A stretch of 26,435 nt of DNA, from positions 1 to 26,435 of the IMG/VR virus record IMGVR_UViG_3300034061_003535, one strand, 5' to 3'. The notes under the pieces were generated by a model. That model was not told the DNA's origin. It did not search any database and was given only the letters and a program-made list of their open reading frames with translations. Below are positions 7,962-10,194 of this stretch, piece after piece. The translations under genes were made by a program, and so were the position numbers. Positions within the stretch are counted from its first letter, which is position 1; the number at the start of each line of letters is the position of its first letter. Origin of the DNA: a virus.

Positions 7962-8149
7962 GGCATCCTGTCCCGCAGCAGGTCATCGAGCGTGACATGC
8001 TGAGCGACTTCGCCGGCGTCCTTCATGCGCTGGAGGATGCGCGAGAGGCGCTTGCGGATGTCGGCCTTGATCATCGCGGATTCCGCCGCCGCGCGCTTGT
8101 CGTTGTCCGCGCGAAACTGCTTCAAATCTTTCTTCGGTTCATCGCTCAT
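7958..8149 (-). CDS. Small charged helical protein of unknown function
   Basis: This is a 63-residue, highly charged protein (MSDEPKKDLKQFRADNDKR start, many Lys/Arg/Asp/Glu), likely an extended helix or coiled coil. It is joined by ATGA overlaps to the helicase-loader-like gene upstream and to the 75-residue gene downstream. No family is recognised. Its place directly after the loader could mean an accessory role in replication, but that is only positional. Confidence 0.55.
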   Translation of the reverse strand: MSDEPKKDLKQFRADNDKRAAAESAMIKADIRKRLSRILQRMKDAGEVAQHVTLDDLLRDRMP

Positions 8150-8748
8150 GCTGCACCATCCTCGTTCTTCTTCGGAGCGGACAGGCGATTCGCGTTCATT
8201 TTGCGCGCCATCTCGGCGATGAGCGCCTGCACGTCCTGTGGCATGCGCTGTCGCTCAATGCGCGTCGTGCGGATGCGCGTGTATGCATCGCGGAATTGCG
8301 CGCGCCAGGTGCTCTCCTGATCGACTTCCATACCGCACAATTCGCGCCATCCGAAGCGCTGAACCAGAGCGCGCGTGTCATCGGCCATCGAGGCAGGCAG
8401 TTTCTCGCCGATGTAGCGCGCGACTTCCTCAGTAGTTCCCCACGCGCCGTAGCGGCTGATCGCGGACTTCACAGCGGCCCATGCTGCGACCCAGTCATCG
8501 CCGCCGTCAGCGACGTCCTCCCACTTTTTGGCAATCTCGAAGATTTCCGCTGGCTTGGGAAACCACTTGCTGGCCTTGACGTGCTGTTTGATCGCGGCGC
8601 TGAACACCGCGTCGTCCATGTCCGCGAACAGGTCGCACCACACGTCGACCAGCATGCGCATGCTCTGCTCCGTCACGCGCTCGCGCTCCTGCGTGTAGGT
8701 CATGTAGAGGATGCCGATGCCCTTGAAAATCGTCTCGTTAGTTGCCAT
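8146..8748 (-). CDS. Helicase-loader-like replication protein
   Basis: This 200-residue protein starts at 8748, fixed by an AAGGAG site and an 11-base overlap with the initiator gene. Residues about 5-75 (MLVDVWCDLFADMDDAVF, then AIKQHVKASKWFPKPAEIFEIA) resemble the small helical domain of phage helicase loaders/inhibitors of the SPP1 G39P type, with the family-like Trp and the FPxxxEI segment. The rest is helical and basic at the end. It follows the replication initiator, as loaders do in lambda (O then P) and SPP1. It would bring the host replicative helicase to the origin. No AAA+ Walker motifs are present, so it is not a DnaC-type loader. Confidence 0.55.
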   Translation of the reverse strand: MATNETIFKGIGILYMTYTQERERVTEQSMRMLVDVWCDLFADMDDAVFSAAIKQHVKASKWFPKPAEIFEIAKKWEDVADGGDDWVAAWAAVKSAISRYGAWGTTEEVARYIGEKLPASMADDTRALVQRFGWRELCGMEVDQESTWRAQFRDAYTRIRTTRIERQRMPQDVQALIAEMARKMNANRLSAPKKNEDGAA

Positions 8749-9673
8749 TTTTCTCCTTGTAAATTCCTCCCAGCATGCTGAGCATGTCGGTAATCTGCGG
8801 CTTCTTCGTCTGTCGATTATCCGTCGGTTTTGGGATATCCGCGTAACCGTCACGGAATTTCTTCCAACTGCCCGTGAGCTGAAACGGGGTAGGAGGCGAT
8901 CCCTGTCGTCCGCGAAAGTCGCTGGTCTTCCACCATTCCAGGAACGCATGAACGTCAGCAGCGTGCGCGGCTGCATCGCCCGTGCGCAGCTGCTTCGCCG
9001 TTCGCGCAATGATGCCCCCGTTCATTTTTGCGTCCAACACGCAGACCTGAGCGACAGCGTCGAACAGTTCGCGGTGACGCGCCTGTTCCTCGGTTGAGAG
9101 AGTCGCGCGCGATGTGGAGGTTTTTGCGCGCTTGGGCTTCTCCTCAGAAACAGAATCACTAGACGCGACTGGATTGCCAGAGGCGACACGCGCGCGCGAA
9201 GCGCGTCGCGGTACCCTCTGATTCTGGTTCTCTTGATCTAGTTGATTTATTCTAGTTAGGGTTTCATTTTTGAACGAATGTAGTTCAGAATTTGAACTAC
9301 TGTTGTTCAAAATTTGAACTACTGGCGAATCGCCCATTCGTTCAATTTCTGAACTACTGTCGTTCAAATTCTGAACTGCTGGACGCGTCAATGTGTAGAT
9401 CGTCGATCCGCTGAATCGCTTCGTCCTCCGAAGCCAGCCGCGCTTTTCGAGCTCATCGATTGCGCGGCTGATGGTCGCGCGTCCGCTGATTCCGCTGCGT
9501 TTCATGATCGCCTCGTAGCCAGGATACACGCGTTGCTCATCGCGCGTGTGATCCACGTGCGACATGAGCGCAATGAACACCAGCCGCGCCGATTGCGATA
9601 AATCGGATTCCAGCAGCTCCATAGGGACAATCGTGAATGATCCCCATGTGCTGCGGACGTTGATTTCTCCCAT
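8738..9673 (-). CDS. Phage replication initiator (O-like), with origin iterons inside the gene
   Basis: This 311-residue protein has an N-terminal winged-helix/HTH domain of the phage initiator type at about residues 1-100: LSQSARLVFIALMSHVD, then YEAIMKRSGISGRATISRAI and DELEKRGWLRRTKRF. A low-complexity Asn/Ser-rich linker (about 100-145) follows, then a second folded region with LSTEEQARHRELFDAVAQV and an aromatic C-terminal stretch. The linker is encoded by the repeated GTTCA-n5-TGAAC units at 9261-9383, so the protein likely binds its own coding sequence, as lambda O binds ori-lambda. The start has an AGGAGG site five bases upstream. It is followed by the helicase-loader-like gene. Confidence 0.75.
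   Translation of the reverse strand: MGEINVRSTWGSFTIVPMELLESDLSQSARLVFIALMSHVDHTRDEQRVYPGYEAIMKRSGISGRATISRAIDELEKRGWLRRTKRFSGSTIYTLTRPAVQNLNDSSSEIERMGDSPVVQILNNSSSNSELHSFKNETLTRINQLDQENQNQRVPRRASRARVASGNPVASSDSVSEEKPKRAKTSTSRATLSTEEQARHRELFDAVAQVCVLDAKMNGGIIARTAKQLRTGDAAAHAADVHAFLEWWKTSDFRGRQGSPPTPFQLTGSWKKFRDGYADIPKPTDNRQTKKPQITDMLSMLGGIYKEKNGN
9225..9383. repeat. Iteron array and AT-rich segment: probable replication origin
   Basis: Four 22-base units start at 9283, 9305, 9340 and 9362. Each begins with the dyad GTTCA-n5-TGAAC followed by TACTG or TGCTG. A degenerate fifth unit fits at 9261 in the same 22-base register. A 13-base spacer carrying the small palindrome GGCGAATCGCC separates the two pairs. 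The flank at about 9228-9275 is unusually AT-rich for this window and holds TCTAGTT twice (9237 and 9251), a candidate unwinding element. The array lies within the initiator gene, as in lambdoid phages. Confidence 0.75.
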
Positions 9674-9682
9674 TCAGTCCTC

Positions 9683-9880
9683 CTAAAACAGTTTGTGATT
9701 CGTCAACCCGAAGACCAAACACGTGAACGCATGCGCCATCGCAAGCAAGATCATTTTGGATGCGATATCGCGCCTGCCGATCAGAACCAGCCCGACGGTA
9801 ATCAGGAAAATCACAATCAGCCCTGACGTGAAATAATCGGTCAGAAACAGAGCCTCAAAGAGTTTGTCCCAGTGGATCAT
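9683..9880 (-). CDS. Small membrane protein with two predicted transmembrane helices
   Basis: This 65-residue protein has hydrophobic segments at about residues 17-35 (TSGLIVIFLITVGLVLIG) and 41-60, joined by a short basic loop (RRD). It overlaps the repressor gene stop by four bases and precedes the replication initiator. Function is unknown. Small membrane proteins cotranscribed with repressors can act in superinfection exclusion, but nothing in the sequence shows that here. Confidence 0.6.
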   Translation of the reverse strand: MIHWDKLFEALFLTDYFTSGLIVIFLITVGLVLIGRRDIASKMILLAMAHAFTCLVFGLTNHKLF

Positions 9881-10125
9881 CGCTCCCGAGGCCCTTTACC
9901 GGATCGGGTGCGCGCAGCCATTTCAAGCGCCTCTGCTGGATTCCATCGAAGCGCTTTGACGATTCGCGCGAACAGCCACACCGCAGGGAGGCCGCCGCCG
10001 CGCTCGATGCGGTAGAGCGTTACGACGTTGACGTCGCAGCGCTTTGCCAGTTCAGCCATTTCCATGTTGTTCTCGATGCGTCGCCGCTGGATTTCAGCGG
10101 CGATTTCGTGTGCGCTCGTATTCAT
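9877..10125 (-). CDS. XRE-family HTH transcriptional regulator (repressor-like)
   Basis: This 82-residue protein is a single XRE/Cro-CI HTH domain: MEMAELAKRCDVNVVTLYRIERGG covers the two DNA-reading helices, and a short basic tail follows. It is the first gene of the leftward operon and faces the rightward operon across a control region with an operator-like palindrome, the usual layout of a phage genetic switch. The ATG at 10125 has no ribosome binding site. A TATCAT hexamer at 10132-10137 would place the transcript start on the A of this ATG, which suggests a leaderless mRNA as for lambda cI from PRM. A GTG at 10131 is an alternative start. It has no cleavage or dimerisation domain, so it may be Cro-like rather than CI-like. 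Confidence 0.8.
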   Translation of the reverse strand: MNTSAHEIAAEIQRRRIENNMEMAELAKRCDVNVVTLYRIERGGGLPAVWLFARIVKALRWNPAEALEMAARTRSGKGPRER

Positions 10126-10131
10126 GCGCAC

Positions 10132-10160
10132 ATGATATCACGTATGTCAATAATTGATAG
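10132..10160 (-). promoter_or_regulatory. Probable leaderless promoter of the repressor gene
   Basis: On the minus strand TATCAT occupies 10137-10132, exactly -12 to -7 from the ATG at 10125. The matching -35 position (CTATCA, 10160-10155, 17-base spacer) is weak, so activation or strong repression is likely. It overlaps the operator-like palindrome and lies back to back with the rightward promoter. The call rests on spacing alone. Confidence 0.45.
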
Positions 10161-10166
10161 TTGACA
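10145..10166. promoter_or_regulatory. Operator-like palindrome in the divergent control region
   Basis: TGTCAA (10145-10150) and TTGACA (10161-10166) are inverted half-sites spaced by ten bases, with a nested perfect dyad TCAATAATTGA at 10147-10157. The right half-site is the -35 box of the rightward promoter, and the left part lies in the leftward promoter. Binding by the adjacent XRE protein could therefore set both promoters. The binding protein is inferred. Confidence 0.6.
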
Positions 10167-10188
10167 ATCCGTAGAGAAGTGTTATTAT
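10161..10188 (+). promoter_or_regulatory. Rightward early promoter
   Basis: TTGACA (10161-10166), a 16-base spacer and an extended -10 TGT-TATTAT (hexamer 10183-10188) form a near-consensus sigma-70 promoter. Transcription should start near 10195, at the first base of a perfect 11-bp hairpin, so the rightward mRNA would begin with a stem-loop. Confidence 0.8.
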
Positions 10189-10194
10189 CTGCAC

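Follow-up and report, generated by a model that had tools for sequence, protein, structure and literature searches.

Genes around a putative replication initiator

The window, that is, the whole stretch of DNA that was analysed, is a virus record of 26,435 bases and is probably a fragment. On its leftward strand lies a gene whose family matches support its assignment as a replication initiator (Table 1). Its stop overlaps a gene for a G39P-like helicase loader, the product of which also matches PHROG 2289, 'helicase loader' (E 3e-4), and a Cro/CI-type helix-turn-helix (HTH) regulator is encoded upstream in the same leftward operon. Genes for SSB, dCTP deaminase and ThyX lie farther along the same strand, and together with the initiator and loader genes they constitute a replication and nucleotide module. 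No helicase was recognised among the scanned window genes of this fragment. Annotated phages show no nucleotide match to the window; the initiator has only weak direct relatives in named phages (E 4e-3), and the loader protein has none there.

An AT-rich divergent promoter region at 10140-10189, which is one of the least stable parts of the record, separates the leftward replication operon from rightward genes. GC skew has a local minimum at about 9.75-10.25 kb, which coincides with this region and its switch of gene orientation, and skew was therefore dropped as evidence of an origin. DnaA boxes are not in excess in the window (14 found, 22 expected).

The initiator matches HTH_36 (PF13730) at its N-terminus, over residues 24-81, with 47.1 bits against a cut-off of 25, and it matches the PHROG profiles 'replication initiation protein' (E 1e-14) and O-like (E 5e-10). 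Phage_rep_O (PF04492) is absent among its Pfam matches with E up to 1, and the protein was for this reason kept out of that family; it has no RepA_N Pfam match either. The AlphaFold model places a winged helix at residues 20-100 with pLDDT mostly above 90, followed by a linker at about 50, which is predicted to be disordered, and a helical C-terminal part. The best matches among solved structures are the plasmid RepA initiators 4pql, 4pt7 and 5kbj, at a modest E of about 2e-3.

Table 1. Features at the initiator locus of the window
Feature	Position	Strand	Remarks
Putative replication initiator gene, 311 aa	8738..9673	-	N-terminal winged helix, predicted disordered linker, C-terminal domain
G39P-like helicase loader gene	8146..8739	-	Overlaps initiator stop; PF11417 Inhibitor_G39P, 28.4 bits (cut-off 22)
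Cro/CI-type HTH regulator gene	9877..10131	-	HTH_31 and HTH_3 above cut-off
Iteron 1 (first in gene direction), GTTCAAATTCTGAAC	9362..9376	.	Exact dyad; arms same in L001
Iteron 2, GTTCAATTTCTGAAC	9340..9354	.	Exact dyad; in L001 spacer differs, arms same
Iteron 3, GTTCAAAATTTGAAC	9305..9319	.	Exact dyad
Iteron 4, GTTCAGAATTTGAAC	9283..9297	.	Exact dyad
Degenerate iteron 5, GTTTCATTTTTGAAC	9261..9275	.	Two mismatches, one half-site intact, 22-bp register
Predicted DNA unwinding element	9235..9284	.	Least stable 50-bp stretch of the whole record
Three AAC-N-AGA repeats, exact 14-bp spacing (9251-9257, 9237-9243, 9223-9229)	9223..9257	-	Invariant columns in relatives

The iteron array and the adjoining AT-rich DNA

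About 300-400 bp inside the initiator gene lies a tandem array of dyads of the form GTTCA-n5-TGAAC. An earlier, sequence-only reading had described four such units starting at 9283, 9305, 9340 and 9362, in two pairs of 22-base spacing, with a degenerate unit at 9261, and had assigned them to the part of the gene that encodes the linker. Its description was borne out throughout: the four units are exact, the start-to-start distance is 22 within each pair and 35 between the pairs (22, 22, 35 and 22 from 9261 to 9362), the degenerate unit stands 22 bp from its neighbour with two mismatches, and the disordered linker (pLDDT about 50) is coded there. The degenerate unit is identical in one relative (L009) and is a full unit in two others (L006 and L007).

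The four exact dyads fall within 94 bp, and no further exact unit occurs elsewhere in the 26,435 bases, for which 0.017 would be expected from base composition. Because the repeats sit in a coding region, synonymous-codon shuffles that keep the protein and its codon usage were also used, and the maximum in 20,000 of them was two units. A chance origin of the array is excluded.

Read along the gene, the predicted unwinding element follows the iterons on their 3' side, an order also seen in oriλ, and the stability minima of the record for lengths of 80 and 100 bp fall at this place too. The sequence-only reading had proposed such a prediction as a check, and had noted an AT-rich flank carrying a repeated TCTAGTT; the least stable stretch of the record does adjoin the array, and the heptamer is present in two copies 14 bp apart (9237-9243 and 9251-9257), with a diverged third, TCTGGTT at 9223-9229, that keeps the register. 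On the initiator strand these form the AAC-N-AGA repeats of Table 1, whose columns are invariant in the window and in L009, L010, L006 and L007, the last despite an unrelated C-terminus. Over 75 genes, AAC-n9..12-AAC has a density of 11.2 per kb just downstream of the arrays against 1.8 per kb in the rest of the gene, about sixfold, and the 60 bp downstream of the array are more AT-rich than the gene in 47 of 56 related genes.

Distribution and DNA-level conservation of the array

The array was sought by DNA pattern only in 2.9 million viral contigs. A pattern of two units at 22-bp distance, with part of the flank, was found in six contigs, in five of which the units lie inside a winged-helix initiator gene. 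Three units at free spacing occur in at least 119 viral contigs or stretches, against 2 contigs for the control pattern of the same composition, CTTGA-n5-TCAAG, and 17 for an n6 spacer. In a test set of the window ORF and 61 non-redundant array-spanning viral ORFs, phrog_270 'replication initiation protein' was matched by 41, the O-like PHROG by 36, HTH_36 by 31, DnaD_N by 11 and Phage_rep_O by 4. These Pfam and PHROG matches are the independent test, whereas a separate HMM built from motif-selected sequences gave a partly circular 91 of 113. Pairwise identity to the window protein is mostly 11-20%, and in most genes the array starts at residue 90-160, directly past the winged helix. Judged by these profile matches, most viral arrays sit inside replication-initiator ORFs and not in general regulators.

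A group of short ORFs of 202-230 residues (L024, L112, L120, L130 and L170, including some in Massilia and Herbaspirillum genomes) carries four units near the C-terminus at spacings of 32-33 and 22; no winged-helix match was found in them, and they possibly encode either a regulator or an initiator of another kind.

Among named phages, initiators selected for their protein similarity have other 5-n5-5 dyads at this point of the gene: GTCAA in Pasteurella phages, GTAAA in Ab1656-2, GTGCA in Ayreon and D_HF5_3, CCCGC in Margaery and TGCCA in RAH1, as well as GTTCA in Alcaligenes phage Piluca. A general 5-n5-5 scan of 19 such initiators found 12 that beat all 25 of their synonymous shuffles. No excess of these dyads was found in those of Helicobacter, Salinibacter, Vibrio D198, VSN-002, IME284 and KpF5, some of which have dyads of other lengths, and the excess in TPWB-05 is a wide pair only. 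The dyad-array architecture is common among initiators, without having been shown to be universal.

Against the origin reading, the same palindrome forms non-origin arrays in bacterial genomes, where 26 of 110 GTTCA-n5-TGAAC arrays lie in or near a winged-helix ORF and several others flank MarR_EPS or polysaccharide genes.

Several types of bacterial array were observed. In several phyla, groups of three palindromes, mostly spaced by 32-33 bp, stand outside genes or at their edges (L133:7232-7311, L152:2614-2685, L167, L171, L205, L148, L138, L186, L219, L165, L180 and L222). These arrays adjoin genes for MarR_EPS (TIGR04176), RfaH, sugar-nucleotide epimerase-like proteins and phosphoenolpyruvate mutase, and are probably operator arrays of the MarR_EPS regulator. 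Streptomyces and related genomes (L125, L137, L139, L144, L156, L166, L172, L176 and L185) have open frames that contain three units spaced by 24 bp; most of these frames belong to a family with a weak ParB_N-like match that is not an initiator. Two nine-unit arrays were also seen, one with a spacing of about 44 bp and no open frame in a Clostridia MAG (L189:3528-3898), the other at 21-bp spacing in a short open frame of a Nostoc genome (L199:5335-5538).

The array in the window might accordingly be read as an operator, at which the winged-helix protein itself or the nearby HTH repressor blocks its own operon while replication starts elsewhere. Lambda-type initiators can be autoregulatory, and since the palindrome stands in threes beside MarR_EPS and polysaccharide genes, winged-helix regulators may use it. 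Yet the array lies well inside the gene rather than at a promoter, the least stable DNA of the record, with conserved 14-bp repeats of its own, adjoins it, and its viral counterparts fall in replication initiators, not general regulators; we regard an operator as improbable.

The closest relative of the initiator (L001, 93% identical), which was found via the protein alone, differs from the window at none of 40 arm bases, at 6 of 20 spacer bases and at 71 of 839 bases in the rest of the gene; through one of the spacer changes EI becomes VS in the protein, with the arms untouched. Among 222 units in 59 genes, 85 start in codon frame 0 and 137 in frame 1, whereas frame 2, in which the unit would read a TGA stop, is never used. 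Two frames are used in 45 of the 59 genes; it is therefore the DNA that is conserved, and the iterons are shown to be conserved as DNA and not as protein. This answers the call of the sequence-only reading for a search for repeat conservation independent of the protein sequence. Unit spacings in relatives are concentrated at 21-24, and smaller groups lie at 30-36 and 42-45; since the helical coherence curve is broad (0.62 over 10.5-11.5 bp), helical phasing is no more than suggestive.

The same counts bear on the notion that VQxLN and SSxxE repeats of the linker do a protein job and that the DNA dyads are their by-product. A low-complexity linker and the 76 of 163 unit spacings that are multiples of three would suit it, but one DNA unit read in two frames within a gene yields unrelated peptides, synonymous shuffles of the gene fail to reproduce the dyads and the linker is predicted to be disordered, which leaves this explanation very improbable.

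Relatives in which the domains are exchanged were returned when the C-terminal domain alone served as query, which gave L245/L246, L002 and known relatives. L245 is 54% identical in its C-terminus but matches only weakly in the N-terminal part (33%, z 9), and the array in its linker reads GTGCA...TGCAC/GGGCAC. L002 is 94% identical in its C-terminus and shows two GTGCA-n5-TGCAC units 23 bp apart at a contig edge, where the C-terminal side alone is visible. Conversely, L007 has a 44% identical N-terminus, GTTCA units and an unrelated C-terminus. Iteron type therefore goes with the winged helix, and iteron specificity would, on these comparisons, reside in the N-terminal domain. The sequence-only reading had named relatives with a conserved initiator but no repeats in the linker as evidence that would tell against it; those with the same C-terminus and another winged helix carry instead a different dyad array in the same place.

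In raw counts that ignore relatedness, recognition-helix position 66 is G, A or N in 49 of 52 proteins of the GTTCA class against 1 of 17 others, and position 69 is S in 26 of 52 against 0 of 17. As both positions differ between the classes, a recognition code is testable. The joint exchange of winged helix and iterons is a natural experiment on the choice of site by an initiator.

A probable origin within the initiator gene

The array might also be a centromere-like site at which a segregation protein acts in the partition or incompatibility of a plasmid-like prophage. TubR, a plasmid segregation winged helix, stands at ranks 6 and 12 of the structural matches, but this reading is scarcely credible given that the family matches are replication initiators, that the best structures are plasmid initiators and that no ParA, ParM or TubZ-like gene was recognised among the window genes examined.

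The array is very likely the initiator-binding part of a theta origin of the oriλ/SPP1-oriL kind embedded in the initiator gene, with the binding and origin activity that we infer for it, and the phage most likely starts DNA copying from these repeats inside its own initiator gene. An origin in this position had been proposed from the sequence, and both the DNA-level conservation and the adjoining least stable DNA support it. A dimer of the N-terminal winged helix would bind each dyad of 15 bp, the half-sites of which are centred 10 bp, or one helical turn, from each other, and an O-some-like complex would assemble on the four to five units, most of them spaced by two helical turns. Strain from this complex may open the AT-rich DNA at 9223-9284 with its 14-bp repeats, as the instability and conservation of that stretch suggest. 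The C-terminal half of the initiator would then recruit the G39P-like loader encoded by the next gene, a step suggested by the G39P similarity and by SPP1 (PMC6316719), and the loader would, by homology, deliver the replicative helicase.

The parallel with ori-lambda drawn by the sequence-only reading holds for the in-gene tandem dyads, their 5-n5-5 geometry and the AT-rich 3' side. Ori-lambda lies in gene O, also in the Stx phages P27 and 933W (PMC7466680), and like the putative origin of the window it lies inside the initiator gene and has tandem dyads with 5-bp arms and a 5-bp centre, an AT-rich stretch after the iterons and the loader gene next. The λ/P27 iteron ATCCCTCAAAACGAGGGA reads CCCTC-n5-GAGGG, and in P27 plasmid establishment was lost when the iterons of gene O were mutated synonymously (PMC7466680). 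The half-site of the window is, however, GTTCA and not CCCTC; the window has 14-bp AAC-N-AGA repeats, its protein matches HTH_36 and not Pfam Phage_rep_O, and its loader is G39P-like and not P-like.

In SPP1, oriL lies within gene 38 and the gene order is 38-39 (gp38, gp39, gp40) (PMC6316719). There too, repeats and an AT-rich unwinding element lie inside the initiator gene, and a G39P-type loader is the next replication gene, an order that the window matches. As to the second origin and DnaB-type helicase of an SPP1-type module, the window, itself probably a fragment, shows a single array, and none of its scanned proteins was recognised as a helicase. RepA_N plasmid initiators bind as a winged-helix dimer to semi-palindromic iterons with an A-rich centre (PMC7145576). 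Those of pSK41 and pTZ2162 (4pt7, 5kbj) are among the top structural matches of the initiator, a resemblance that is structural only (E 2e-3), with neither a RepA_N Pfam match nor the same iteron sequence.

The arrangement is thus of a known kind, that of the oriλ and SPP1 oriL models, while the GTTCA iteron class is apparently new and widespread. No description of this class or of its wide spread was found in the literature searched, the coverage of which was partial, so this counts only weakly towards its being new. Only a minority of sequenced phages have a known origin; here a single short DNA pattern, used without protein similarity, picks out initiators and their likely origins in no fewer than 119 viral contigs. 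The chances seem even that GTTCA-n5-TGAAC arrays, the 14-15-bp repeats beside them and a small residue with which the recognition helix begins form a single portable origin module, consisting of winged helix, iterons and unwinding element, that phages and prophages across many phyla share. If so, the iteron sequence would be readable from the N-terminal domain, and origins, as well as phages competing for the same origin code, would be predictable from sequence alone.
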